Positions 2,265 to 62,134 of a stretch of 64,000 bases of DNA are shown one piece after another. The position numbers and the translations under genes are program-made. The notes below the pieces were generated by a model. The model saw only the letters and a list, made by a program, of their open reading frames with translations. It ran no database searches and was not told the origin of the DNA. The stretch lies in NCBI GenBank assembly GCA_035610835.1, contig CM069454.1, forward strand, positions 56,301,600 through 56,365,599. Direction: 5' to 3'. Every line of letters starts with the position of its first letter. Position 1 is the stretch's first letter. This DNA comes from Ophiura sarsii. Lineage: Eukaryota > Echinodermata > Ophiuroidea > Amphilepidida > Ophiuridae.

Positions 2265-3400
2265 TGAATCTTTGGAACATTGACAACTATAGACGGTTTG
2301 ACGCCATTTGCTAATATGATATCTAAAGAGCGTGTTGGTGGCCATGACATTCACAAAATGTATCATGAATCTTTGAAACATTGACAACTAAACAGTTTGA
2401 CGTCATTGATAATATGTTATCTAAAGAGCATATCGGTAGTCATAACATTCACCAAATGTATTATGAACCTTTGAAACATTGACAACTAGACGGTTTGACG
2501 TCATTGATAATATGATATCTAAAGGCCCTGTCACGCCATAACGTATCGCCTCAACGTATGCCAACGTATGCGAAATATCGAAAAATAAGTTGGTGTACGT
2601 TGGTGTACGCTGATATAAGTTAGGGGTACGTTGGGGATACGTCGCTTACGTTAAGAGCACGCTGTGATATGCTGTGACAATTTGGAACACGTCGAGCCCG
2701 CGAAAAAATATTGAGCATGCTCAAAATTTATCGACGTACTCAACATGTGCTTAACTTACGTTCTGCATAAGTTCCCGATAGGTTCGTGGTACGTTAGACA
2801 TACGTTTACAAACGCTGACATACGTTAGACATACGCTAACATACGTTAGAGGTACGTTACTCGTCGTAAGTTATAGGTTGGACCTATAGATTTACCCTTC
2901 TAGATATTTTAATAGTTATCGTAGGCTTGAACTGGCAACACTTGTCCCGCCGTGTACGAAACTCAATTTTTGCAGCGGCATAAGTCACGTGTTCGTTGTA
3001 CGCCGAGGATACGCTGAGGATACGTCAGTAGAAGCGTATCGCTTCGAATACGTTAAATATACGTTGGTATACGCTCGCCGATCGCATACGCTGTGATACG
3101 CTGTCATAAGTTTGTTATAAGTTAGTGATACGCTATCAATACGTTAGTCATGCGCTATGGATACGTTATGGATACGTCCATTCCATCACCTATGTCGACC
3201 TTTCCTACGCAATTCGTTGGGAAGTTGGACGTTCTTGGACGTTCTTGGACACTGACAATTTTCGAGCTATTTTTTTAATAAGTCGGCATATGTTCAGGCC
3301 ACGTTCAAGCCATACGCTATGGTATGACAGGGCCTTAAAGAGCATGTCGGTAGCCATAACATTCACAGAAATGTATTATGAATCTTTGTAAATTGACAAA
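2265..3400. repeat. tandem repeat of about 100 bp, interrupted by an ACGTAT element
   Basis: Units beginning GAATCTTTGRAACATTGACAA start near 2265, 2366 and 2464, about 98-101 bp apart. The third is interrupted at 2523 and resumes at 3336 with AGAGCATGTCGGTAG. Neighbouring units contain the uninterrupted word ATCTAAAGAGC, which gives the empty site for the insertion and shows the target duplication is TAA. A related partial unit lies at about 1915-1965. An inverted relative lies near 17.45-17.52 kb. Confidence 0.8.
2523..3335. mobile_element. ACGTAT-array TIR element, short complete copy (813 bp)
   Basis: The termini AGGCCCTGTCACGCCATAA and CTATGGTATGACAGGGCCT form an imperfect TIR, flanked by TAA at 2520-2522 and 3336-3338. 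The adjacent tandem repeat supplies the empty site. The interior is a run of TACGTTNN/TACGCTNN words at 10-11 bp spacing, broken only by a few landmarks: a TTGAGCATGCTCAA palindrome near 2711, a 60-bp unphased block near 2880-2940, and a CACGTG box near 2987. There is no ORF. A 3-bp TAA/TTA target is typical of PIF/Harbinger elements, so this is provisionally a Harbinger-type MITE. Confidence 0.9.
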
Positions 3401-3588
3401 ACCTCAACGTATGTTATTATAGAGTAACCTTGATAGTAATGGAACTAGTGTTATCCAAGTACATCGCTAGCTATTAGAACACAGAGGTAATACAAAAGAT
3501 ACATGACGCAATCATGACCTGAAGTCGTCAACTAAAACGTAGAGTTACAAATCAAGAGACCATTTTTGTTCATTCGATTTGTATGTAA
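3336..3588. repeat. dispersed host repeat, left part (continues at 6823-6956)
   Basis: This sequence, with 6823-6956, matches 17.13-17.52 kb in inverse orientation. Shared words include CATGACGCAATCATGACCT, GTAGAGTTAC and GAGAGCACCATG. The 17-kb copy lacks the 3.2-kb insertion and therefore gives its empty site. No coding content is seen. Confidence 0.7.
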
Positions 3589-6500
3589 AGGCCCTGTCAC
3601 ACCATAACGTATCGCCTCAACGTATGCGAAATATCGAAAAATACGTTGGTGTACGTTGGTGTACGCTGATATAAGGGTACGTTGGGGATACGTTGGGGAT
3701 AAGGGTACGTTGGGGATACGTCGTTTACGTTAAGAGCACGCTGTGATACGCTGTGACAATTTGGACCACGAAAAAATATTGAGCATGCTCAAAATTTCTC
3801 GACGTTTTCAACGTGTGCTTAATACGTTCTGCATAAGTTCCCGGTAAGTTTGTGGTACGTTAAATATACGTTGACATACGCTGACATACGTTACTCGTAC
3901 GTTACTCGTACGTTACTCGTAAGTTGGTATACGTTGATGAACGTAGGCTGACGGGGAAACGCACAGCCATCGTAGTGATAACGAGTTGATAACGTATATG
4001 TGCCGTATGTCTAACGTATGCCTGACGTATTTCCAACGAGTTTCGACGTATTCTCACGTATTCACCTCATGCCGGGCGATCGTGTAAGGCCCTGTCACGT
4101 ATCCATAGCGTATTGAACGTATACATTGCGTATGACTAACGTATTGATAGCGTATCACTAACTTATAACATACTTATGACAGCGTATCACAGCGTATGCG
4201 AGCGTATGACTAACGTATGCTTAACGTATACTTAACGTAGCGTAGCGTATTCGTAGCGTATGATGATGGGTTGATGTGTTCAGCACGACAGACCATGAAG
4301 AAGTGAGGATGAGATACTCCAGGGACCCATTTATATACTCAAACCCTCCATAAGTTCCCAAAACGCCGGATGCGCGCTAGCTGTACGGTAGCCCTATCAC
4401 ACCATGGCGTATCGCCTGAACGTATAACAACGTATGCGAAATATCGAAAAATACGTTGGCGTACGTTGGCGTACGTTGGTGTACGCTGATACAAGTTAGG
4501 GGTAAGTTTGGGATACGTCGTATACGTTAAGAGCACGCTGTGATACGTTGTGAAAATTTGGAACACGTCGAGCCCGTAAAAATTATTGAGCATGTTCACA
4601 ATTTCTCGACGTACTCAACGTGTGCTTAACTTACGTTCTGCATAAGTTCCCGATAGGTTCGTGGTACGTTAGACATACGTTTACAAACGCTGACATACGT
4701 TAGACATACGCTGACATACGTTAGAGGTACGTTAATCGTCTTAAGTTATAGGTTGGACATATGGATTTACCCTTCTAGATATTTTAATAGTTATCATCTA
4801 GGCTGCGTTTACTTGAACTGGCAACACTTGTCCCGCCGTGTACGAAACTCAATTTCTGCAACGGCATAAGTCACGTGTTTGTTGTACGCCGAGGATACGC
4901 TGAGGATACGTCGAGCACGGCAGACATACGCTACGAATACGTTGGTCATACGCTCGCCGATCGCATACGCTGTGATACGCTGTCATAAGTTTTTTATAAG
5001 TTAGTGATACGCTATCAATACGTTAGTCATACGCTATGTATGCGTTTAATACGCTATGGATACGTCCATTCCATCACCGATGTTGACGCAATTCGTTGGG
5101 AAGTTGGACGTTCTTGGACGTTCTCGTACTCTGACAATTTTCGAGCTATTATTTGAATACGTCGGCATACGTTCAGGCCACGTTCAGGCCATACGCTATG
5201 GTGTGACAGGGCCTAAAGGCGCTGTCACACCATAGCGTATGGCCTGAACGTGGCCTAAACGTATGCCGACGTATTCAAAAAATAGCTCGAAAATTGTCAG
5301 AGTCCGAGAACGTCCAAGAACGTCCAACTTCCCAACGAATTGCGTCAACATCGGTGATGGAATGGACGTATCCATAGCGTATTAAACGCATACATAGCGT
5401 ATGACTAACGTATTGATAGCGTATCACTAACTTATAACAAACTTATGGCAGCGTATCACAGCGTATGCGATCGGCGAGCGTATGACCAACGTATTCGTAG
5501 CGTATGCCTGCCGTGCTCGACGTATCCTCAGCGTATCCTCGGCGTACAACGAACACGTGACTTATGCCGTTGCAGAAATTGAGTTTCGTACACGGCGGGA
5601 CAAGTGTTGCCAGTTCAAGTAAACGCAGCCTAGATGATAACTATTAAAATATCTAGAAGGGTAAATCTATATGTCCAACCTAAAACTTAAGACGATTAAC
5701 GTACCTCTAACGTATGTCAGCGTATGTCTAACGTATGTCAACGTTTGTAAACGTATGTCTAACGTACCACGAACCTATCGGGAACTTATGCAGAACGTAA
5801 GTTGAGCACACGTTGAGTACGTCGAGAAATTTTGAACATGCTCAATAATTTTTCGCGGGCTCGACGTGTTCCAAATTTTCACAACGTATCACAGCGTGCT
5901 CTTAACGTATACGACGTATCCCAAACGTACCCCTAACTTGTATCAGCGTACACCAACGTACGCCAACGTACGCCAACGTATTTTTCGATATTTCGCATAC
6001 GTTGTTATACGTTCAGGCGATACGCCATGGTGTGACAGGGCTACCGTACAGCTAGCGCGCATTCAGCGTTTTGGGAACTTATGGAGGGTTTGAGTATATA
6101 AATGGGTCCCTTGAGTATCTCATCCTCACTTCTTCATGGTCTGTCGTGCTGAACACATATCAACCCATCATCATATGCTACGAATACGCTACGCTACGTT
6201 AAGTATACGTTAAGCATACGTTAGTCATACGCTCGCATACGCTGTGATAAGCTGTCATAAGTATGTTATAAGTTAGGGATACGCTATGAATACGTTAGTC
6301 ATACGCTATGTATACGTTCAATACGCTATGGATACGCTATGTATACGTGACAGGGCCTTACACGATCGCCCGGCATAAGGTGAATACGTGAGAATACGTC
6401 GAATCTCGTTGGAAATACGTCAGGCATACGTTAGACATACGGCACATATACGTTATCAACTCGTTATCACTACGTTGGCTGTACGTTTCCCCGTCAGCCT

Positions 6501-6822
6501 ACGTTCCTCAACGTATACCAACTTACGAGTAACGTACCACTAACGTATGTCAACGTATATTTAACGTACCACAAACTTACCGGGAACTTATGCAGAACGT
6601 ATTTAGCACACGTTGAGTACGTCGAGAAATTTTGAGCATGCTCAATAATTTTTCGTGGTCCAAATTGTCACAGCGTATCACAGCGTGCTCTTAACGTAAA
6701 CGACGTATCCCCAACGTACCCCTAACTTATTTCAGCGTACACCAACGTACACCAACGTATTTGTCGATATTTTGCATACGTTGGCATACGTTGAGGCGAT
6801 ACGTTATGGTGTGACAGGGCCT
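3589..6822. mobile_element. two ACGTAT elements head to head, 3.2-kb palindromic insertion
   Basis: The left arm 3589-5214 runs from an A-type end (CACCATAACGTATCGCC) to a B-type end (AGGCCATACGCTATGG). The right arm 5217-6822 is its reverse complement, beginning AGGCGCTGTCACACC. Only AA separates the arms. Each arm has the same module order: an end module of about 0.5 kb, a middle module starting at an internal AAGGCCCTGTCAC (4084; mirror near 6351), and a full short element starting at an internal AGCCCTATCACACCAT (4389). Flanks are TAA on the left and TTAA on the right. The 17.2-kb paralogue shows the site without the insertion, so both arms probably arrived as one unit or formed by duplication in place. 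No transposase is encoded. Confidence 0.9.
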
Positions 6823-6956
6823 TTAACCTTTGCACAAAAAGTCTCAACGTATTGTTTCATAATCATGATAATTGCATTTTTGCACCTCTGTGCATGAAGA
6901 TAATCCGAGAGAGCACCATGTAACGTTGTAGCTGTGTGAAAGTAAATGCAACATAT

Positions 6957-7402
6957 AGCCTGCTTCGATAATTGCCTAACTCATTTTTTCTAGTTCTTAG
7001 AAAACAACAAAAGTATGAAACCTGTTACTTTTGTACCTGTTACTCATTTTGCATTATTGATGGATGGATATTTATTATGTGGAATGTGACTTGTATTGTT
7101 GATGGCCTCGATTGGCGTGCATGGATGCACTAAGCCAAGTCATATAGAAATAGATGAACACAGCCATACAATAATTTGATTAATTCCATGGATTTGTCAA
7201 TGCAAATTCAATAATGCAAAATGAGTAACATGTTGGAGTGGTCTAGTGGCCCTTTTGCAACAAATCTCTTCATTTATCAACACTTTTGATTGGTCAATGA
7301 CTTAGATATTATAACAGCATGTGCATAATGTAATGAAGTCATGATTTATGCAAAAAACTCAATTTTGCTGAAAAGTGAGTTAGGCAATTATCGAAGCAGG
7401 CT
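6957..7402. mobile_element. MITE with 30-bp TIR, containing a second nested inverted repeat
   Basis: The ends AGCCTGCTTCGATAATTGCC and GGCAATTATCGAAGCAGGCT continue inward as ACTCATTTT/AAAAGTGAGT for about 30 bp. Inside is a separate 22-bp inverted repeat at 7039-7060 and 7208-7229 (core ACTCATTTTGCATTATTGA), probably a second element nested in the first. I cannot define a clean target duplication. No coding capacity. Confidence 0.75.
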
Positions 7403-8664
7403 GACGATATGTACATATTTGCCTGTATGGAACAACGACATGGTCCCTACGGTCCTTGATCAGAGTATTACAATCTCTAATTTTATTGGACAAATTTAAA
7501 GGGATGTAATGGATTTCATTGCATATACCATTGTATCAGGAGGGCATATCATTTCGGGCATGCTTCACTTTGCAAACTCTTTATAAACGATAACTTTCTT
7601 TTCGTTTAGAATTCTGCGATAACGGATGGTTCACAAAGATGGTTATAACTTTTTCAGATTATCTGTGTTTTAAATTGCCTTCACATTTCCCTCGTTATAA
7701 CATCATTGCATTTTACACACTGACATTATTCTGCATTATTTTAAACACATAGAAAATCTATATTTAACGTAATCGGACAATGACATTAATAACTCCATTT
7801 ATTTGCTAACTTTGTGATTTTATGATTGAAAAACTTGCAACACTGTTAATATTTATTTTAGGCGCCTCCTTATGTAGTGCCAGATGGTAGCGAAAAAAGG
7901 TTGATTATTTTTGTGCAGCGATTATGAATAATGAGGCGACATACTGTAAATTGTATGATACATCGTAAGCTTGTGAAAATGGTTAGTCCATAGTAAAATG
8001 GAAACTAGCTTCATCATGCACGAAAATGTACCTAAAAGCAGTTTGTCCACTTTTTTATGGCGATCAATGGTCCTATAATTACCATCGATATTTGCGAGTG
8101 GACAAACAAGTTTAGACTAGTTTTCTTACATACAATCTGTTTATACCTTCATTCTTTGATTATCCGTGAACTTAGGATAAAATGATGTGTTCACGACCAA
8201 TTTCGCGTTGTTTTCTCGCAAAATAACGAAAAGTGTTGTTATTGTTGTTGTTCTTGATTTTGTCTTCTTTTCAATTTGGATTTTTGTTTCGAAATTCAAA
8301 AAGAGAGCTGCCTGTCTCATCTGTAGCTGGCTTGACATGGTGCTTCTGCCATTGAATGGATCTTTTGTAAAATCAAATTCCAATCGAATGGAAGGGGAAG
8401 ACGCAATTTTAGACAGCGATGTTATTTGTCATATATCAATCAAAGTCAATACAACGCTTTACTATTATTACTGACTGTATACCATCTATTTTATATTGGA
8501 TTTGAATATGTGATACATTTTAAAAAAGGTTCGTGATTGAAAAAACAATATTCTATCTGAAATTAAAAATTAAAAGTTACGAAACATTGCGAGATCGCTC
8601 ACATTATTTGCCTCGTGTTTTATTTACCCGAATCACCGCGAATTATAGTTTAACTGAACAGTTG
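7403..8664. other. AT-rich sequence with no supported gene
   Basis: Two overlapping open frames around 8141-8474 lie on opposite strands and have low-complexity composition with no recognisable motif, so I treat them as chance. I see no inverted repeats or tandem structure of note. Confidence 0.5.
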
Positions 8665-9141
8665 ATTTTATTTTATTTTATTTTATTTTATTTATTGGGT
8701 ACTCAATTATCATATCAGAAATACAAACATGTAATTAATTCATGCACATAAATAAAAAGATATAGACATAATAAAATATAAGCAAAAGTACCAAGGATAG
8801 CCAAAAAAGCTTTAAACACAAAGCTTATTGCTATTGGGGTCCTTTGTTAAAACAAGCATACAAAGGCAAAAAACCCAAGAAAAACAAATGAAACGCGTGA
8901 ATGACGCACAAACGCCAAACGAAAAACAAGGACATAACAAATAAACACAGGGCACGAGCACAAAGTGACACCAGCTCAAAGATCAATTGAATCATAACTC
9001 GCCAAGTGTCTTTTAACTAATTGTTTGAATAAACTAAAATTGTTGGTGTTCTTGATCTCGCTCGGCAATGAGTTCCAGTGATGAATAGCAGTATAATAAG
9101 TCAATCTAGCTTCCCCCTTTGAAGAAGGAACAACAAAGTTG

Positions 9142-9549
9142 GGAAAAAGTGTACTTTAGGTCCCAGATTCTGGTATACCAGTATCGGTCAATACTGGAAC
9201 ATACAATTTGCCAGTATCGCTCGATACTGGTACGATTTTAATGTTACAATATCGGTCGATACTGGAACACCAAATTGTGTTCCAGTATCGAGCGATACTG
9301 GAACGTTTTTATGTTACAGTATCGGTCGATTCTGGTACACAGGTTATCAGTAGTAATTTGTCCCACTATTGAACGTTGCTGGTACATAATTTTATTCCAG
9401 TATTGCCCAATAATTGTACATTTTATATGTGCCAGTATCGGCCTATACTGGAACACTGACTTTGCACCAATATTGAACGATATTAGATGTACCAGTATCG
9501 GACGCTACTAGTACAGTCCAGAATTTGGGACCTAAAGTACACTTTTTCC
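9142..9549. mobile_element. palindrome-array MITE, copy 1 (408 bp)
   Basis: The TIRs GGAAAAAGTGTACTTTAGG and CCTAAAGTACACTTTTTCC are flanked by an 8-bp duplication CAAAGTTG (9134-9141 and 9550-9557). The insertion splits the C-terminal region of the LINE, whose coding sequence resumes on either side. Inside are ten imperfect 20-bp palindromes of the form CCAGTATCGNNCGATACTGG, centred near 9187, 9221, 9255, 9291, 9325, 9372, 9406, 9441, 9476 and 9501. An 8-bp duplication suggests a hAT-like source, but the termini do not match the common hAT CAGNG start. Six-frame ORFs here are artefacts of the repeats. Confidence 0.9.
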
Positions 9550-10350
9550 CAAAGTTGAATGGGCTACCCCTGGTACTATATTTATGCAAATATGACACTC
9601 TAGTAACATAGGATTTCAAATAAACAGGAGACAAATCATGAAAAATCTTAAAAACATGGTTAAGTTTAAGTTGCACAACCCTATCTCGGCTTGATAACAT
9701 CCATACCATGTCCAACTATTTTGACCAATGTGGGTACGCGGTCCTACACCCAAGACAATTATGTTCAACATGCTTTGAAAAGGGTTTTTTTTTAATTTTT
9801 GAGAAATAGCTGAATACCAGGAACATGTATAATCAAAGTAACACATAATCAATGCTGAACACAGTGTCTTGCGGGGTTTTAAATTTAAACAATCGGAGTG
9901 CCTGTATAAGAATTTGAGTCTCCCGCTGGCCTTTTTGATGACATTTAAGGCAATCGAATCCCCTGAAAGAGTATTGTCCAGGGTGACCCCTAAATACTTG
10001 ACAGATAAGAAGGTGTTAAAAATATCATCATTACAAATGACAGAGAAATCATCAACAGAATTTAGCTTCCTCTTGGTACCAAATGACATAGCCTCTGTCT
10101 TACCAAGCTAAAGGGAGAGCTTGTTATCAATCAGCCATTGCCTGCAACATTCTAACTCTTGACTTAGTTTATCCGCAATAATTGTGGGATCTTTGCCACA
10201 GACCAGCAAGCCACTGTCATCAGCATATAAAGCACTTTACAGTCGACACTAATGGGTATGTCATTCACATATCAGAGAAATAGGGGAGGACCGTGGATGC
10301 TGGCTTGCGGAACCCCGCAGGTGATACCCAGTGGGGCAGAATCAACCTGG
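9550..10350 (-). pseudogene. LINE reverse transcriptase, catalytic and thumb part
   Basis: Reading down from about 10350, the minus strand encodes an IVKPG...GITCGVPQASI segment, then YADDSGLLVCGKDPTIIADK at about 10225, then an open block 10089-9616 with YLGVTLDNTLSGDS and KTLCSALIMCYFDYTCSWY, and then HVFKIFHDLSPVYLKSYV. In active elements GVPQGSILGPLLF precedes YADD; here it reads GVPQASI...GPPLFL followed by a stop. Several frame changes and stops mean no functional enzyme. Confidence 0.75.
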
Positions 10351-10393
10351 TTTAACAATTTGCCTCATACCGCTCAAATACGATATAAACCAC

Positions 10394-10955
10394 TTAACTG
10401 AGGACACACCTAAGGTCTCTAATTTGTTGTTTAACAGAATGATTCTTGACCATCATAATTCCATGATTCCTCTTGTCAAATGAACCGAGAGTGCCAATCT
10501 CAACCGACACGACGTCTCCTCGCCCCCTCTGGTTACGCCACTGGATAGCCCTCAAGCTGGGTATTGACAGCCCTTCAAGAATCTTTGAAGCGACACTGAG
10601 TATACTCACAGGTCTGTAATTACCAACTTCTGACCTTTCCTTTTTCTTAAAAAGTGGCTTCACACGAGCAGTTTTAAAATCTTGTGGAACGGAACTAGAA
10701 TTAATAGATAAATTAATGATGGGAGCCAAGTGATCTTTTATAGCTATAACACCGTCTCTTAGAAATCTAGCCGGATCAATACTAGTACTTTTAGTTGGGT
10801 GTAACGCACAGAGTTTTTTGAAAACAATTTCGGAAGTGATGGGTAAGAGGCTGAAACGTATTGACTCAGTTCCCTTTTCCTTATAATAATTCTTATACAT
10901 CCTAATCGGTATAATAAAGCCCTTGCGAAGGCGGAATATTTTTTACCAAGTTGCC
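10394..10955 (-). pseudogene. LINE reverse transcriptase, N-terminal fingers
   Basis: An open block from 10900 to 10394 contains LHPTKSTSIDPARFLRDG, a fingers motif with KPLFKKKERSEVGNYRPVS, and SVASKILEG. After SKILEG the expected RT segment of roughly 100 residues, including the first catalytic aspartate, is missing. It is replaced near 10500-10550 by a piece reading CAGTGGCGTAACCAG on the minus strand, which resembles a hAT-type terminus and may be a remnant insertion or deletion scar. The element is inactive. Confidence 0.7.
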
Positions 10956-11915
10956 AGCAACATTAGAATATAAGTCATTAAAACAGTCAGCCACTCTTCT
11001 GGGATTAAAACACATCTCACCATTTACATTTAAAGGCCCTGTCACACCATAGCGTATGGCCTGAACGTGGCCTGAACGTATGCCGACGTATTCAAAAAAT
11101 AGCTCGAAAATTGTCAGAGTCCGAGAACGTCCAAGAACGTCCAAGAACGTCCAACTTCCCAACGAATTGCGTCAACATCGGTGATGGAATCGACGTATCC
11201 ATAGCGTATTAAACGCATACATAGCGTATGACTAACGTATTGATAGCGTATCACTAACTTATAACAAACTTATGACAGCGTATCACAGCGTATGCGATCG
11301 GCGAGCGTATGACCAACGTATTCGTAGCGTATGTCTGCCGTGCTCGACGTATCCTCAGCGTATCCTCGGCGTACAACGAACACGTGACTTATGCCGTTGC
11401 AGAAATTGAGTTTCGTACACGGCGGGACAAGTGTTGCCAGTTCAAGTAAACGCAGCCTAGATGATAACTATTAAAATATCTAGAAGGGTAAATCTATATG
11501 TCCAACCTATAACTTAAGACGATTAACGTACCTCTAACGTTTGTCAGCGTATGTCTAACGTATGTCAGCGTTTGTAAACGTATGTCTAACGTACCACGAA
11601 CCTATCGGGAACTTATGCAGAACGTAAGTTAATCACACGTTGAGTACGTCGAGAAATTTTGAACATGCTCAATAATTTTTCGCGGGCTCGACGTGTTCCA
11701 AATTTTCACAACGTATCACAGCGTGCTCTTAACGTATACGACGTATCCCAAACTTACCCCTAACTTGTATCAGCGTACACCAACGTACGCCAACGTACGC
11801 CAACGTACGCCAACGTATTTTTCGATATTTCGCATACGTTGTTATACGTTCAGGCGATACGCCATGGTGTGACAGGGCTACCGTACAGCTAGCGCGCATT
11901 CGGCGTTTTGGGAAC

Positions 11916-12047
11916 TTATGGGGGGTTTGAGTATATAAATGGGTCCCTTGAGTATCTCATCCTCACTTCTTCATGGTCTGTCTTGGCCTTCTTGCTTTTT
12001 CCTCCTCGGCCTCGGCCCCTGGTTGTTTGCTTCTTCTTGGGAGGCAT
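11916..12047 (-). CDS. short basic ORF inside the ACGTAT element, unknown function
   Basis: The 43-residue frame starts MPPKKKQTTRGRGRGGKSKK and continues to TDHEEVRMRYSRDP before a stop. The first 22 residues are lysine/arginine/glycine-rich, like a nuclear or DNA-binding tail; they superficially resemble histone-type tails but I cannot assign a family. A longer upstream start exists in the same frame (12128), but the start at 12047 sits about 53 bp from a TATA box and begins the basic segment. The tail from TDHEEV onward recurs in frame in the copies near 160-235, 4290-4360 and 6080-6150, preceded there by other residues (VFST). That looks like remnants of one larger ORF after different internal deletions. 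Its function is unknown. Confidence 0.35.
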   Translation of the reverse strand: MPPKKKQTTRGRGRGGKSKKAKTDHEEVRMRYSRDPFIYSNPP

Positions 12048-12099
12048 GTTAACTGCTTGATGACATCGGCGGGAATGATGTAATGTGAGATCGGCGCGG

Positions 12100-12107
12100 T
12101 ATTTATA
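12100..12107 (-). promoter_or_regulatory. TATA-box-like element upstream of the short basic ORF
   Basis: The minus strand reads GTATAAATACC about 53 bp before the candidate ATG at 12047, with CATTACATCATTCCC in between as a possible start region. A second TATATAAAT on the plus strand near 11933 faces the opposite way and is shared by all long copies. Both are sequence matches only. Confidence 0.3.
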
Positions 12108-13038
12108 CGTGCTACAGCGGCATAACAAGCCACGTGTTCGTTGTACGTCGAGTATACGCTGACGATACGTCGAACACGGCAGACATACGCTACGAATACG
12201 TTAAGCATACGTTAAGCATACGTTAGTCATACGCTCGCATACGCTGTGATACGCTGTCATAAGTATGTTATAAGTTAGTAATACGCTATCAATACGTTAG
12301 TCATACGCTATGTATACGTTCAATACGCTATGGATACGTGACAGGGCCTTACACGATCGCCCGGCATAAGGTGAATACGTGAGAATACGTCGAAACTCGT
12401 TGGAAATACGTCAGGCATACGTTAGACATACGGCACATATACGTTATCAACTCGTTATCACTACGTTGGCTGTACGTTTCCCCCAGCCTACGTTCATCAA
12501 CGTATACCAACTTACGAGTAACGTACCACTAACGTATGTCAGCGTATGTCAACGTATATTTAACGTACCACACACTTACCGGAAACTTATGCAGAACGTA
12601 TTAAGCACACGTTGAGAACGTCGAGAAATTTTGAGCATGCTCAATATTTGTTCGTGGTCCAAATTGTCACAGCGTATCACAGCGTGCTCTTAACGTAAAC
12701 GACGTATCCCCAACGTACCCCTAACTTATATCAGCGTACGCCAACGTACACCAACGTATTTTTCGATATTTCGCATACGTTGGCATACGTAGAGGCGATA
12801 CGTTATGGTGTGACAGGGCCTTAAGATTGATCTTTAGTGTTTGAGCTGTAACCAAGAGATTTATATTCCGTCGGTAATCCTGGTAATAGCATCAATCGTC
12901 TGCCGGTGTTTTCGTTACCTCGAATAACCTTCACATTGTTCATGTGTTTAGTGGCACAACACCCAATCTACAATAGCTGCGACATACTCATGGTGGGCGG
13001 TTTCCGATTCTGTTGCAATAAGTACAGTACATAAGGGA

Positions 13039-22492: not shown

Positions 22493-22509
22493 CGCCCCCG
22501 GCTGGACTC

Positions 22510-22549
<40 letters not shown>

Positions 22550-22566
22550 AATTGCGCCACGGAGGT
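22493..22566 (-). tRNA. tRNA-Asn (anticodon GTT), possibly decayed
   Basis: The 74-nt minus-strand sequence folds as a cloverleaf: D-arm GCGCAATTGGTTAGCGC, anticodon arm TTCGG-CTGTTAA-CCGAA with GTT anticodon, variable AGGTT, and T-loop TTCGAGT. The A box (TGGCGCAATTGG) and B box (GGTTCGAGTCC) are intact, and a TTTTT terminator follows within about 10 nt. There are no introns. Two flaws are visible: an A-C mismatch at 1-72 and a G-G mismatch in the T-stem (50-64), plus a U-G at 4-69. It may be a functional variant or a recent pseudogene carried by the surrounding TTAA element. Confidence 0.75.
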
Positions 22567-25728: not shown

Positions 25729-25850
25729 TATAACTTGATATAGATTCATCAGGATTGTTCATAAATATGTGATAAAAATGTTCTTTTGACGAATCCAATA
25801 AATCGTACTTACTAGTTACGTTTCGACTCCTTACTGAGCTGGAGTCTTCA
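25729..25850 (-). repeat. Penelope pLTR, 3' copy (122 bp)
   Basis: Identical by eye to 28408-28529. In sense orientation it begins TGAAGACTCCAGCTCAG, containing the stop codon of the ORF and the stem II/GAAAC part of a hammerhead-like motif, and ends ATCAAGTTATA. Confidence 0.9.
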
Positions 25851-25858
25851 TCTGACTG
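25785..25858 (-). ncRNA. candidate hammerhead ribozyme overlapping the ORF stop codon
   Basis: Minus strand reads CAGATGA, stem II GACTCC-loop-GGAGTC, GAAACG, and about 27 nt later CGTC, where GTC would be the cleavage triplet. A stem III can be drawn as ACGUAACU against GGAUUCGU with two mismatches. The left box differs from CUGANGA at the second position (A for U). The ORF stop TAA lies in the stem II loop. Hammerheads in Penelope pLTRs are established; activity of this one is unknown. Equivalent sequences occur at 28464-28535 (minus) and about 28645-28720 (plus, inverted fragment). Confidence 0.5.
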
Positions 25859-28428
25859 GCAACCTTCTGATTTGTCCTATTGGTTTTATAGGCACGATTC
25901 TCGCCGATAGAGGGCGGAGTTTCAATCAGTTGGTCGTAAATGTTATTCAACTTGTAAGCCCCCTCGTCCTTATTCATTGTGTCTTGTCCTCGCCTGCGGA
26001 TCCAGATGGCTTCTTTGAGCCATCTCGTGGTTTTATGTCCTTCTTTGTCAATGATTTTGGCCTCGTCCCAATTTATGGCATGATTAGTGGCAGCCACATG
26101 GTCCGTGATAGCCGATTTGTGTTGTTCGCCTACTGACGCCTTTCTCACTGCCCGTGTGTAAGACCTAGCCTCAAATTTATCAACCTCAGTTTTATGTTCT
26201 TTAAGTCTTGTCCCGAATAAGCGACCGCTCTCTCCTATGTAAGTTTTCTTACAACCGTTGCACGGAATTTCATACACAATTTCCGGAGTATGGTCTGGGT
26301 CCCGCTTGTCTTTTGGGTGGACTAACAGTTTCCGAAGCGTCGTGTGTGGCTTCATAGCCGTGGCGAAGCCGTGTTTCTTAAACACTCTTGATGCTTTCTC
26401 TGATAATCCCTGGACGTAGGGGATGACTACCAGGCCCTTGGATTTGTTGGCGTCGTCTTTCTTTGTGTTGGTTTTGTTCTCCTTTTTGCGGTTTCTTGCA
26501 GTCTCGACTTTTTGGATGGACCATTTGGGATAGCCGCAGTTGGTTAACGCGATTTCTAACTTTTTCTCCTCTTCCCGCTTGTCCTCGTCTTCTGTTATTA
26601 GACTGTCTTTTCTGTCGAGAAGTGTGCGAATGACGCCCAACTTTTGATGGAGGGGGTGATGGGATGTGAATTGTAGATACTGGTCTGTGTGGGTTTTCTT
26701 CCTGTAAATGCAGAGTTTTGTGCTGCCATCCGGCTTCCTGATTATTAGTGTGTCTAAGAAAGGAATGCGACCCTCTTCCTCTTCCTCGTACGTGAACTTG
26801 ATGTTCCCCGTAGGATCGATGGTGTTGAGGTGTTCTGTTAGATTATCCACTTCTCCTTTCTTCACAATCTCCAAGATATCGTCCACATATCGCTTCCATA
26901 GTCTTGGCTTACAATTTAACGGAGCAGTAGCCATGGCTTTTTGTTCAAGCCATTCCATAAACAGGTTTGCTGCAATGGGACTAAGTGGGCTGCCCATGGC
27001 GGCCCCAGCGTTTTGCACATATATGATGCCCTTGAAGCTGAAGTAAGTGGTGGTGAGGCAGAACTTGATGAGTTCCATCAAATCTCCGACAGAGAGGCGC
27101 GTTCTTTCCCCAAGATTTTTGTCCTCGTCCAGTCTCTGCTTTATGATCTCGAGAGTCAAGTTGATCGGTGTGTTGGTGAATAACGATATGACATCATGTG
27201 AATTAAGTAGTTCCTCCTCCTCGACTGTAATGTCAGTTAAATCATCCGCGAGTTGTTTGGAATTGAGGACATGATGTTGAGTCTTTCCAACTAATGGACC
27301 GAGAATGTCCGCCAATGATCGGGACACATTGTAGGTGATGGAACCGATGCAGTCAACAATGGGACGAAGTGGAGTGCCTTCCTTGTGAATTTTGGGGCTA
27401 CCGTAGATACGCGGGACATTTTCTGCTGTAGGATACAAGTATTTCTTGTCCGCTGGCGTGATCTTCTCCTCTTTCTCAAGTCTGGTTATGATGGAAACTA
27501 ACTGTCTTTTGTATGATGCAGTAGGATCCTTTTTTAACTTGGTGTAAGTTTTTTCATCACTGAGTAGAGTGGTAAGCTTCTTGTCGTACTCATCCGTATC
27601 CAAAATCACTGTGGCTTTGCCCTTGTCAGCTGGGAGGATCGTAATTGATTTTACTTTTTGTAGCTGTTTTATGGCTTTCCGTTCCTCGCTCGTGATGTTG
27701 GACTTGGGCGTTTTTGATGATTTTAACGTACCTACTATTTCCGACCTTAGTTGTGCTGCTTTTCCTGCTGGTAATTTCCAACACGCTTTTTCACAGGAGA
27801 CAATGTATTCATCGACGATTGACTGCTGCGTGACAGATTCCGGCGAGACTGCATAATTCAGCCCCTTGGCTAAAACTTTGGTTTGCGACTCGGTTGTCTT
27901 ATATTTTGATAAGTTGATAACCCACCGTTTTAGTTGAGTGCCACTGAGATCCGGATTTCCATTTTCCACGCTGTTTTGGCGTTTTGAAAGGCTAGATTCC
28001 TTTTTGTTGATCAAGCGTTGGTATTTCCGGGTTTGACGGGCGCGGACATGTTGATATTCTTGTTCGCGAGATTTCTCGAGATGTTGCGAGATCCTTTGTT
28101 GAACGTTGTCAGGGAAGCCGCGGGCTTTTAAAACATCGTCGGCTTTCGATTTCTTCAGATTTAAGTTACTAATATTGTTGTTTATAACACGCACACGTTC
28201 ACGGAGGAGCTCTTTCTCAGCTTTTTGTATGATATTGCGGGCTTTGTTAGTGTTGATAGGGCATTTGAGGCGTAGGCTTGACGGGGTGAGATTACTGTCT
28301 TTACAACGAAGGGTAAACACACGATGATTTCTGAATCTCGCGATCCTTTTTCCGATGTTATCACAATCGCGGAGCTGTTTAACGATGTTCTGTCCGTAAT
28401 CTTGTCTTATAACTTGATATAGATTCAT
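25831..28428 (-). CDS. Penelope-like reverse transcriptase with GIY-YIG endonuclease (865 aa)
   Basis: The protein copies element RNA into DNA at a nicked target. Residues 1-250 are a basic, helical N-terminal region with a coiled-coil-like stretch (about 64-150). The RT core follows: ILPADKGKATVIL (264-276), GSPKIHKEGTPLRPIVD (343-359), motif A DVISLFTNTP (412-421), motif B AAMGSPLSPIAANLF (476-490), and motif C YVDD (514-517), all with the catalytic aspartates D412, D516 and D517. A linker FTSHHPLHQKLGVIRTLL (587-604) precedes the GIY-YIG domain: IVYEIPC...TYIGESGR (717-736), with R741, E806 and N819 as likely active-site residues. Start M1 lies inside the upstream pLTR. The length is normal for the family and the frame is uninterrupted, so it could be active. 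No telomerase-type motifs are seen. Confidence 0.95.
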   Translation of the reverse strand: MNLYQVIRQDYGQNIVKQLRDCDNIGKRIARFRNHRVFTLRCKDSNLTPSSLRLKCPINTNKARNIIQKAEKELLRERVRVINNNISNLNLKKSKADDVLKARGFPDNVQQRISQHLEKSREQEYQHVRARQTRKYQRLINKKESSLSKRQNSVENGNPDLSGTQLKRWVINLSKYKTTESQTKVLAKGLNYAVSPESVTQQSIVDEYIVSCEKACWKLPAGKAAQLRSEIVGTLKSSKTPKSNITSEERKAIKQLQKVKSITILPADKGKATVILDTDEYDKKLTTLLSDEKTYTKLKKDPTASYKRQLVSIITRLEKEEKITPADKKYLYPTAENVPRIYGSPKIHKEGTPLRPIVDCIGSITYNVSRSLADILGPLVGKTQHHVLNSKQLADDLTDITVEEEELLNSHDVISLFTNTPINLTLEIIKQRLDEDKNLGERTRLSVGDLMELIKFCLTTTYFSFKGIIYVQNAGAAMGSPLSPIAANLFMEWLEQKAMATAPLNCKPRLWKRYVDDILEIVKKGEVDNLTEHLNTIDPTGNIKFTYEEEEEGRIPFLDTLIIRKPDGSTKLCIYRKKTHTDQYLQFTSHHPLHQKLGVIRTLLDRKDSLITEDEDKREEEKKLEIALTNCGYPKWSIQKVETARNRKKENKTNTKKDDANKSKGLVVIPYVQGLSEKASRVFKKHGFATAMKPHTTLRKLLVHPKDKRDPDHTPEIVYEIPCNGCKKTYIGESGRLFGTRLKEHKTEVDKFEARSYTRAVRKASVGEQHKSAITDHVAATNHAINWDEAKIIDKEGHKTTRWLKEAIWIRRRGQDTMNKDEGAYKLNNIYDQLIETPPSIGENRAYKTNRTNQKVASQMKTPAQ

Positions 28429-28529
28429 CAGGATTGTTCATAAATATGTGATAAAAATGTTCTTTTGACGAATCCAATAAATCGTACTTACTAGTTACGT
28501 TTCGACTCCTTACTGAGCTGGAGTCTTCA
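28408..28529 (-). repeat. Penelope pLTR, 5' copy (122 bp)
   Basis: Direct repeat of 25729-25850. It supplies the first codons of the ORF (MNLYQVI) and probably the promoter. In sense orientation the upstream neighbour is the inverted 3' fragment. Confidence 0.9.
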
Positions 28530-49558: not shown

Positions 49559-51215
49559 GTCGTTCTATGGATCATAATGGCTGATTCTTTGTGACCCTAT
49601 TGATGATGGAGCGCCATCGTTGTCTATTTTGTGACATGCGATGTGCAGAGATAAGAGATAGACCAGTTGCTTCTTTAATTCCATCAGTCCAACGATGCTT
49701 TGGTCTGCCACGTTTACGTCTTCCTTCGATAGCTCCTTGTATTATCACCTTTTCTAGATTGTCACCCTCTCGTCTAACAATATGTCCAAAGTATTGTAGC
49801 TTGTTGCGCATGATTTTTGTATACAAAGAAGTTTGGTTCCCAATCTGGCTTCTGACAAATTCATTTGTTTTATGCTCTTGCCATGATATTCCTAGCATCT
49901 TGCGCCAACGCCACATTTCAAAAGCTGATATTTTCTTTGAATCTGCTATTCCGACTGACCATGTTTCAGCTCCATATGTTGCGACCGGAAAGATAAGTGC
50001 CTTCATAATACGTATTTTTGTGGCCTTTGTGATTCCTCTATCCTTCCAAATGGTTGATAGGGCATTTGCTGATGTTTTAGCCATTGCCAGACGTCTTTTA
50101 ATTTCTCCAGAGCTTCCACCATCTTTAAGAATTAGTGATCCAAGAAAATTGGAAGTTATCTACACAATCTACTGTATCATTATAGACCTTCACTTGTTGG
50201 TTGCTGTTTCCTCCGCAAATCATGACTTTGGTCTTCTTAACATTTAGGAAAACTTTTCACTGGCTGCTTTCACTCTGTGTATTAGAACTTGAAGTTCAGG
50301 TCCAGTTCTAGCTATCAGGGTGGTATCGTCAGCATATCGGAGATTGGTTATGGTGCGACCTCCTACTGAAACTTGGCCTTCCACTCCATCAAAAGCTTGC
50401 CTCATGAATGATGTACTCTGCATAAATGTTGAATAGGTAAGGTGACAGGATACATCCTTGACGAACGCTTTGTCCAATAGAGAACCACTCACAATTGCCA
50501 TTATCTGTTCTTACTGTAGCCTCTTGATCTTTGTAGAGGGATTTAATCAGCTCAATGATGTGAAGAGAGAAACCCATTTCTTGCATTACCAACCATAGCT
50601 TCAAATGTTGAACGCAGTCAATGCCTTAGAGTAATCAATGAAGCATAGATATAGGGGTTGTTGAAATTCCAAGCTCTTTTCCATCAGGTTTCTTATGTTA
50701 CCTATTTGGTTTCTTGTACCTCGTCCTTTCCTGAAACCTGCCTGTTCAGGTGGTAACTCATTCTCCAGGTGTTGTCGGATCCTTTCTGCAATGATATGTA
50801 GTAGAACCTTACTGCTATGTGAAATTAAGGCTATCGTGCGGTTGTTAGCACACTCTCTGGTGTCCCCTTTCTTTGGGAGAGGGAAGAAGACTGCTTTCGT
50901 CCAGTCCGTAGGCCATTTAGTTGAACTCCAAATCTTGGTGCATAGTCTGTGGATCACTTCAATGCCTTCTTTATCACTTTCATTTAGGAGTTCTGCGGGA
51001 ATATTATCATCTCCAGGAGATTTACCAATCTTTAATTTCTTCATAGCTTGTTCCACTTCACTCTTCAGAATATCTGGTTCAGACATGTCAATGTTGAGAG
51101 TGTTATCGTCAACTTGAATCCCATCTTGTGATGCATATAACTTTTGGCAGTACTGTTTCCATCTGGCTTTGATTTTCCCTAAAGCATCCCCGCAGATATT
51201 TTTAAAGTAGAACAC
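49552..51215 (-). pseudogene. RTE-like LINE ORF2, RT and C-terminal domain, frameshifted
   Basis: The minus strand reads, in order: LGKIKARWKQYCQKLYASQD (near 51170); MKKLKIGKSPGDDNIPAEL; FFPLPKKGDTRECANNRTIA; AGFRKGRGTRNQ (block 51215-50601); LIKSLYKDQEATVR and a GQSVRQGCILSPYLFNIYAE motif (50604-50389); RYADDTTLIARTGPELQVL, the catalytic aspartates (near 50330); and after a gap ALIFPVATYGAETWSV, MWRWRKMLGISWQEHKTN, KRGRPKHRWTDG (50084-49572). At least three frame changes break it. The endonuclease domain is missing, so the insertion is 5'-truncated. A (CGA)n-type tail near 49551-49564 marks the 3' end. RTE-like features: short linker, YADD in this context and the GRPxxxW C-terminus. Confidence 0.85.
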
Positions 51216-61138: not shown

Positions 61139-61300
61139 GATACAGGGTGTCTCAAAAAAATTACAACGCACCATTAGCCGATCATAACTTCCTAATTAAG
61201 TATCTGAATTTTACAATTCAAATAGTAAAATGAGGCCAAATTAGTTTTCTACAATTGGAAGAAAACAGCGTTTAATTTTGTTAAGTAATTACGGAGATAT
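61139..61300. mobile_element. mariner-like terminus, solitary
   Basis: ATACAGGGTGTCTCAAAAAA resembles Tc1/mariner ends seen elsewhere in the window. No inverted partner or transposase is seen before the LINE begins. Confidence 0.4.
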
Positions 61301-61305
61301 CAACA

Positions 61306-62134
61306 TACACTGATGACACACAACTGTTTACCTCCATGAAACCATCAGAGAGAGACGTTTGTGTTTCAAAACTTGAACAGTGTCTTAATGACATAAAATC
61401 ATGCACTGTGCACAACAAGCTTCAGTTAAATGACAGCAAAACTGAAGTGATCCATGTTACATCAAAAAACTTGAAGACGACGCCTTTATCTGGAATTAGG
61501 GTTGGCGACATGACCATTGAACCAACGTCCTCTGCGCGCAATCTCGGAGTGTTCATAGATAGTCAACTAACTATGAAGAAACATGTTAATAACATCTGTC
61601 GGAATGCAACTCACGCCATCAGAAGTATCGGAAGGTTCAGACATTATCTCGACCAGGATACAACTGAAAAACTAGTTCACGCTTATGTCACCTCGTGTTT
61701 AGATCATTGCAATTCCCTTCTCTACGGTCTCCCAGACTCTGAAATCATGAAGCTGCAAAGAATCCAGAATACTGCGGCAAGACTGGTGACACGTACTAAG
61801 AAATATGACAGCATATATGAGATCATAAGCGGTCTCCACTGGCTTTCCATCCGCCAAAGAATAGCATTCAAGATCAACCTGCTCACTTACAAGTGTCTCA
61901 ATGGACTTGCGCCTTCATATTTGTCGGACCTTATCACTCGATACACTCCTAGTCGGTCACTCCGCTCTTCTTCCCAGAACTTGATCAAACCCCCTTCACT
62001 TCGACCACGTACTACCTACGGACGCCGATCCTTCATAGAGGCCACTCATACATAATGGAACAATTTACCTATGCATGTCAGGGCTGCATCTTCTATGGAC
62101 ATTTTTAAGAAAAAATTGAAAACTCATCTTTTTA
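61306..62134 (+). pseudogene. LINE RT from catalytic box to C-terminus
   Basis: It reads YTDDTQLFTSM (catalytic box with YTDD), LQLNDSKTEVIHVTSK, ARNLGVFIDSQLTM, AYVTSCLDHCNSLLYGLP, LQRIQNTAARLVTRTKKYD, LHWLSIRQRIAFKI, CLNGLAPSYLSDLI and RRSFIEATHT. An in-frame TAA at 62053-62055 precedes the expected WNNLPMHVRAASSMDIFKKK, so the stop is premature. The upstream RT is missing. Confidence 0.88.

Follow-up and report, generated by a model that had tools for sequence, protein, structure and literature searches.

Arrays of a short word spaced at one unit per helical turn in non-autonomous DNA transposons of the brittle star Ophiura sarsii

In the bacterial insertion sequence IS1535, four motifs in helical phase are bound cooperatively by dimers of TnpA, which spread as a filament (PMC6188088). 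Additional THAP sites occur within the long repeats of Galileo (PMC3688188), and a Myb-like protein of Harbinger elements binds the terminal inverted repeats (TIRs) (PMC9179366). In a ciliate, a 10-base-pair (bp) periodicity has been described for the lengths of elements, not for arrays (PMC9942856). In this work, we describe a family of transposable elements in a 64,000-nucleotide stretch of the Ophiura sarsii genome (contig CM069454.1, positions 56,301,600 to 56,365,599, hereafter the window), in which a degenerate word, ARCKTAT, recurs every 10 or 11 bp in long arrays. An earlier note, made from the sequence of the window, had proposed a degenerate word at the helical repeat within an element resembling a miniature inverted-repeat transposable element (MITE), and this is borne out by the spacing, the TIRs and the target duplication. 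The copies in the window are the following.

1 to 952, + strand: partial copy of the long type, with the outer module at 1-284 and the inner module from 285, as placed by alignment with the other copies
2520 to 2522, no strand: left target-site duplication of copy A, TAA, which is present as a single TAA in the empty-site units of a 98-bp tandem repeat
2523 to 3335, + strand: copy A, short type, 813 bp from TIR to TIR, delimited by its ends, flanks and empty site
3336 to 3338, no strand: right target-site duplication of copy A, TAA, from the flanks and the empty site
3589 to 5214, + strand: copy B, long type, 1,626 bp, composed of an outer module and an inner, A-like module
5217 to 6822, - strand: copy B', the inverted neighbour of B, 2 bp away from it
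11034 to 12821, - strand: copy C, long type, 1,788 bp, with TAA flanking each side; it retains a gene start

Within copy B, the following word arrays are referred to below.

3858 to 3937, - strand: word array of the outer module on the opposite strand, from unit chaining
4098 to 4262, + strand: ARCKTAT word array with the 15 intervals first remarked on in the earlier note, part of a longer + array at 3942-4262
4634 to 4740, - strand: word array of the inner module, the TACG series of the earlier note; its spacers are alike, which fits recent duplication
4960 to 5068, - strand: word array of the inner module, from unit chaining and spacer comparison

The C of an NCGTAT-type word had been placed at 16 positions between 4098 and 4257, and all 16 carry it, the words at 4162 and 4173 reading CTTAT and that at 4236 reading CGTAG; nine of the ten positions between 4633 and 4729 listed for the A of TACG-type words agree as well, 4654 being a T. 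In copy B, 60 pairs of CGTA lie at multiples of about 10.6 bp, as compared to 2.5 ± 1.8 in 200 dinucleotide shuffles (maximum 8), and the corresponding number for TACG is 70, as compared to 3.1 ± 2.2 (200 shuffles, maximum 11). Periodicity of both words is also present in B', C and the fragment at 1-1063, while copy A is periodic for TACG (30 versus 1.0) but not for CGTA (1 versus 0.9), of which it has merely seven instances. Chaining of units in the window with free steps of 8 to 13 bp gave 130 intervals of 11 bp, 86 of 10, 19 of 9, nine of 13, two of 14 and none of 8 or 12 for A, B, C and the fragment, whereas identical chaining of the control region 14001-62000 returned 34 intervals only, scattered over 8 to 14 bp. 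The core of the 90 units in copy B reads CGTA in 70 cases, CTTA in seven, CGTG in four and CCTA in three, with six other forms seen once or twice.

The same spacing is found elsewhere in the genome, which comprises 1,573,662,873 bases in 748 contigs. The comparison of autocorrelation with shuffled controls that the earlier note had suggested for other copies gave a 10/11-bp signal in all eight loci of a first search (one of which, L002, overlaps the window), each having 29 to 70 CGTA pairs at 10 or 11 bp and at most seven in its shuffles (100 per locus). Neighbouring CGTA words pooled over 27 loci (L001, L003-L008, L010-L028 and L059, with loci overlapping the window excluded) are separated by 11 bp in 621 cases, 10 bp in 380, 9 bp in 79, 13 bp in 53, 12 bp in two and 8 bp in one, counts that are not independent events because the copies are relatives. 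Gaps of 9 to 11 bp average 10.50 bp, and no comparable gap peak is present in 30 control loci. Additional clusters at 20-22 and 31-33 bp mark lost words, which keep their place as had been claimed, and 109 gaps of 5-6 bp lie inside runs. The 10/11-bp lattice is present in every element copy examined. Its extent is smaller than first described: within the range 2523-12821, arrays occupy A (2523-3335), B together with B' (3589-6822) and C (11034-12821) and are absent from the 4.2 kilobases (kb) between B' and C. Nor is nearly the whole element built of units, as the 90 units cover roughly 60% of the 1,626 bp of copy B and 157 bp of it (4730-4887) are without a strong word. The orientation of the words does switch, but much of this is due to the joining of modules, and long runs within a module keep a single orientation.

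An imperfect TIR of about 35 bp, AGGCCCTGTCACACCATARCGTAT, is found with few mismatches at both ends of A, B, B' and C, and the first array word already lies inside it. Copy A is inserted in the 98-bp tandem repeat (2243-2524, 2.8 copies), other units of which show the empty site TATC-TAA-AGAGC; the target duplication of copy A is therefore TAA. Both ends were recognised in 24 copies from loci L001-L028, in which five loci yielded none and L002 and L009 represent copies B and C of the window. Identical 3-bp flanks, all TAA or TTA, border 16 of these 24 copies, five have TAA opposite TTA, two adjoin another copy and one, of 260 bp, fits neither class. The five copies flanked by TAA and TTA (L010, L019, L021, L022 and L026) are complete, and the middle base is the only position at which the two sides of the duplication differ; the 260-bp mini copy (L007, 2280-2539) has both TIRs and a short array, with no matching 3-bp flanks. 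Genome-wide, a 27-letter pattern of TWA followed by the TIR has 2,249 exact matches and its control none, and a first look gave 1,256 candidates for a 200-base piece of the long type (40 scored, 97-100% identity) and 1,242 for a 171-base piece (40 scored, 98-100% identity). Viral contigs contained no exact 23-base element end. Sizes range from 260 bp (L007) over 813 bp (A) to 1.6-1.8 kb (B and C), MITEs being usually under about 800 bp. No transposase gene is seen in the window copies, and element frames in L009-L028 are 45 to 133 amino acids (aa) long where scored. The elements are non-autonomous TIR DNA transposons and MITE-like, and they are likely to belong to a PIF/Harbinger-like superfamily, with a target duplication of the Harbinger type; TWA is the usual PIF/Harbinger target. 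Ten copies differ from each other by 5.0% on average (range 0.2-17.2%, two of them having unaligned tails) and by about 2.5% from their consensus. In the genome of Amphiura filiformis, also a brittle star, DNA transposons make up most of a burst that has been dated to 10-15 million years ago and whose divergence to consensus peaks at 2% (PMC11310086). By its own divergence, the present family is a candidate contributor to such a burst.

B and B' meet head to head (5204-5227), and together they make an almost perfect palindrome of about 3.2 kb, the inverted arms 4578-5214 and 5217-5853 being 98% complementary; the palindrome is bordered by TAA on its left and by TTA on its right, with no direct repeat. 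The gene start is present in C and lost from B and B'. The partial copy at the left is truncated by the edge of the window, and its right end is absent or rearranged. In L021 (1660-3140), the word-free centre of the copy contains a foreign sequence of about 0.65 kb, perhaps another MITE, which has inverted ends and includes TTTTGTTGCAAAAGGGCC. Tandem Repeats Finder reports 80 short rows in 13.5 kb, most of which are fragments of these elements; annotators should be aware that this program breaks elements of the family into many short rows.

We propose that the ARCKTAT arrays of these probable PIF/Harbinger-like elements are docking lattices with a period of 10.5 bp for a transposon-encoded protein, a prediction to which we assign about an even chance. 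In this model, molecules of the protein would line up next to one another along the helix on the word array and, once bound, would bring the two element ends together. The word would have originated as part of the TIR itself and would have spread inwards as tandem duplications added 10-11 or 20-22 bp at a time; the copies with readable, in-phase words would be those that were moved again. We infer that the protein reading the word is the element's own transposase or a partner of it and that the phasing aids cooperative binding. Cooperative binding had already been listed among the possible roles, and we regard it as the best, if predicted, reading, since two of the three arrays retain both words and spacing with spacers that are near random. 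A bolder version, which we consider rather unlikely, is that a eukaryotic cut-and-paste transposon converted the word of its own TIR into a rail with as many as about 90 sites in helical phase, along which transposase or a partner would form a filament over hundreds of bp, and that this rail wins the competition for transposase and drove a burst of copies in the genome of a brittle star. Should the arrays serve as such a rail, the family would offer a natural system for studying how the number and helical phase of sites set both transposase assembly and the success of non-autonomous elements, which is a question left open by the repeats of Galileo and Foldback (PMC3688188).

Several results weigh against the docking lattice, the first of which concern the phase. 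The outer + array has a Rayleigh R of 0.91 at a best period of 10.51, the outer - array one of 0.71 at 10.72 and the inner - array one of 0.56 at 10.09, but permuted gaps reach the observed values in fractions of 0.105, 0.148 and 0.455, respectively, and have a mean R of 0.83, 0.64 and 0.56. Register breaks occur at gaps of, for example, 13-18, 26 and 29 bp, which displace the phase, and the longest single-phase runs extend up to 13 units. Jittering the gaps by up to 3 bp abolishes the signal (fractions 0.000, 0.006 and 0.003 for outer +, outer - and inner -). From the permutation and jitter results together it follows that the units are phased locally, one per helical turn, in runs separated by breaks. 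Register as a property of the whole element, and with it the idea that every unit presents on one face of the helix, had to be given up, since it is partial and gap permutation does nearly as well. Compensation between 9- and 11-bp intervals was also considered and is not significant (P 0.21, 61 intervals).

Near-equal register after permutation would be expected if the arrays were a neutral tandem repeat within a MITE, whose 10/11-bp unit had multiplied through slippage or unequal exchange and whose helical spacing reflected unit length only. We consider this possible and give it a real, if minority, share of our confidence. It is favoured by whole-unit insertions and deletions between copies (10, 11 and 20-23 bp). 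Gaps between the window copies measure 10, 20 and 10 bp in the inner module and 10, 23, 21, 11, 11 and 11 bp in the outer module, the others being of 1, 1, 2, 2, 3, 8, 9 and 9 bp, one of 11 bp outside the arrays and three large. Distinct gaps of 6-45 bp among the ten copies are of 7, 8, 9 (four), 10 (four), 11 (five), 13, 19, 20 (four), 21, 22, 23, 24, 30 and 41 bp, in addition to 16 gap sizes smaller than 6 bp. Whole-unit gaps are thus frequent, and tandem duplication of the unit is therefore a live process; Tandem Repeats Finder likewise calls many arrays at periods of 10, 11, 21 and 22.

If multiplication were neutral, spacers should resemble each other about as much as words do. At lag 1, the spacers have an identity of 0.37, with a background of 0.29, and the best identity over lags 1 to 4 is 0.36 in 3940-4262 and 0.40 in 4880-5070, the related arrays of copy C giving 0.42 and 0.36. 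In 468,554 simulated neutral arrays of similar density (a single starting unit, insertions or deletions to substitutions at 1:8, no gene conversion), the mean best-lag identity is 0.80, and values of at most 0.36, 0.40 and 0.42 occur in fractions of 2.8e-5, 1.8e-4 and 3.5e-4. Two of the three arrays combine near-random spacers with persisting words and 10/11-bp spacing, a state to which neutral duplication rarely leads in the simulation. Against this, and hence against the docking lattice, the arrays compared with the simulation were picked after inspection, and the third array, 4452-4740, which is sparser than the simulated set, has a best-lag spacer identity of 0.78 and needs no selection. 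The lag-1 simulation is also weaker, with 18,962 of 686,893 arrays at or below 0.33 and 1,018 at or below 0.17. Moreover, words are no more constrained than spacers among the ten copies, in which 93 of 464 word columns and 23 of 139 spacer columns are variable (P 0.39; other columns, 229 of 1,011). A first count in the window copies had found words to be less variable (31/493 versus 22/169, P 0.008), but after removal of misaligned columns the difference is 18/433 versus 13/158 (P 0.06), and constraint on the word between copies was not upheld, the trend being gone among the ten. With no sign of constraint after insertion, selection may be read as acting on which copies get moved, and not on what the host keeps.

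The remaining points that weigh against a transposon-encoded protein on the lattice come from the search for an autonomous parent. The following two features lie in copy C.

12100 to 12107, - strand: TATAAATA, TATA-box-like, 60 bp before the ATG in copy C
11919 to 12047, - strand: open frame of 43 aa in copy C, the basic start of a protein, opening at the ATG

The 43-aa frame is presumably the start of the parent's protein. In the genome it has 1,341 first-look candidates (150 scored, 93-100% identity), the 20 fetched loci that match it (L009-L028) are element copies, and no relative was found in the protein collection. The frame reaches 56 aa in L018, and its last stretch enters the inner module at a joint that is constant in L001-L028, in two cases after a 20-bp duplication; the standard joint of the two modules has 646 and 648 exact genome matches with two wobble patterns. 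Among 30 loci examined (of 110 matches) for PF13359, the DDE transposase of PIF/Harbinger elements, none has a paired TIR or an array within 1.5 kb, and L037 has one lone 11-base near match. Three TIR pairs that are 2.9-4.6 kb apart, picked from the first 100 listed ends, contain short frames only (at most 102 aa in L059, none of at least 100 aa in L060, 149 aa in L061), and neither eight frames of L059 nor the 56-aa frame of L018 matches a Pfam family above cut-off (one match, E 0.061). Within L059 (751-3750), about 3 kb without array words lie in a copy that has a TTA target duplication. A transposase with these ends was thus not found among these 30 PF13359 loci, the three long TIR pairs or the matches to the 43-aa start, and the absence of such a protein is the chief weak point of the docking lattice.

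The same gene start bears on an enhancer-like function, in which a regulator from the host or the transposon would recognise the words and the promoter of the parent's gene would be driven by them, the non-autonomous copies merely inheriting the array. The outer array of copy C extends to the TATA-like site, and in 17 of the 20 loci L009-L028 the distance from such a site to the ATG is no more than about 70 bp. On the other hand, A, B and B' retain their arrays though promoter and ATG are lost, arrays occur in each module and at either end, and the word lies inside the TIR, which makes this explanation improbable on its own. The array-adjacent TATA-like site and gene start in C nevertheless suggest that the sites proposed for docking could also control the parent's gene.

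A structural array, in which phased steps bend the DNA or set the rotation of nucleosomes, had also been listed as a possible role. The period equals that of B-DNA, and AT, CG and TT steps are somewhat phased in the arrays. However, the strongest nucleosome signal, that of TA steps, shows hardly any phasing in the three arrays (amplitudes of 1.4, 0.9 and 1.2 root n; no shuffle control accompanies these step values), and a conserved 7-bp word exceeds what such a signal needs, so that we think a role of this kind very unlikely.

Lastly, the words had been suggested as a substrate for a de novo CpG methyltransferase preferring CpGs about 10 bp apart, as CpGs often are here (10 or 11 bp), with a CpG observed/expected ratio of 1.73-1.84 in the elements and 0.75-0.84 in the remaining window. 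Transitions account for 46 of 71 CpG changes among the ten copies and 155 of 325 elsewhere, and in comparisons with copy A, which is older, the rate of difference at CpG sites is 1.5-2 times that at other sites (e.g. 20/153 versus 45/642). Methylated CpG shows a roughly tenfold excess of mutation, far above the change seen at CpG sites among the ten copies (71/2,748, 2.58%, versus 325/12,931, 2.51%, at other sites), and the CpG-less units of copy B are CTTA (seven) and CCTA (three), with TGTA or CATA in none of 90; both observations speak against heavy germline methylation and leave this the least credible of the explanations, with hardly any weight.

Outside the elements, the window contains a 70-bp tandem repeat at 9182-9341 (2.3 copies, with inverted stretches) and a tRNA gene at 22493-22566 (- strand). 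A Penelope-like frame of 868 aa at 25831-28437 (- strand) has a reverse transcriptase and a GIY-YIG end, with Pfam matches below cut-off, and 485 relatives, some of them in Amphiura filiformis. Two further reverse-transcriptase fragments are located at 50604-51215 and 61285-62052.

With regard to known systems, the 3-bp target duplication sets the family apart from hAT elements, in which it is 8 bp. The likeness to hAT lies in many short transposase-binding subterminal repeats in either orientation, some of them hundreds of bp from the ends, but those are variably spaced according to the available text of PMC6188088, whereas the spacing here is 10/11 bp. With PIF/Harbinger and Tourist-like MITEs, the family shares the 3-bp target duplication and short TIRs, but the accessible part of PMC9179366 describes no long phased arrays. 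A Foldback-type element was rejected, as the TIR is only about 35 bp in A, B and C and the B/B' palindrome consists of two inverted neighbours. In unit length, Foldback of D. melanogaster, with repeats of 10, 20 and 31 bp, is nearer. Galileo and related elements resemble the family in their long, internally repetitive DNA, and Galileo in tandem repeats with extra transposase sites, but the Galileo TIR is up to 1.2 kb and that of Tetris up to 1.7 kb with repeats of about 220 bp, as compared to the short TIR and the 10-11-bp unit here (PMC3688188, PMC4079207).

Among the papers found in the open-licence literature, judged by title or the start of the abstract, none describes phased arrays in a MITE, and four sequence stretches of the TIR gave matches there to 14 papers, of which none is on transposons by title. 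The earlier note had recognised no comparable arrangement, which is partly answered by the phased end motifs with a transposase filament known from IS1535 (PMC6188088). IS1535, a member of the IS607 family, is the closest mechanistic precedent, having short direct repeats one helical turn apart near a transposon end, but it has four 9-bp motifs over about 40 bp, a serine transposase and neither TIR nor target duplication, as far as described in the available part of PMC6188088. The family described here is eukaryotic, carries dozens of units over hundreds of bp, has both TIR and target duplication, which rules out membership of IS607, and its binding is a prediction, although it may work alike. 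Taken together, and by analogy, the arrays are best read as the binding logic of IS1535, Galileo and Harbinger, possibly realised at a larger scale.

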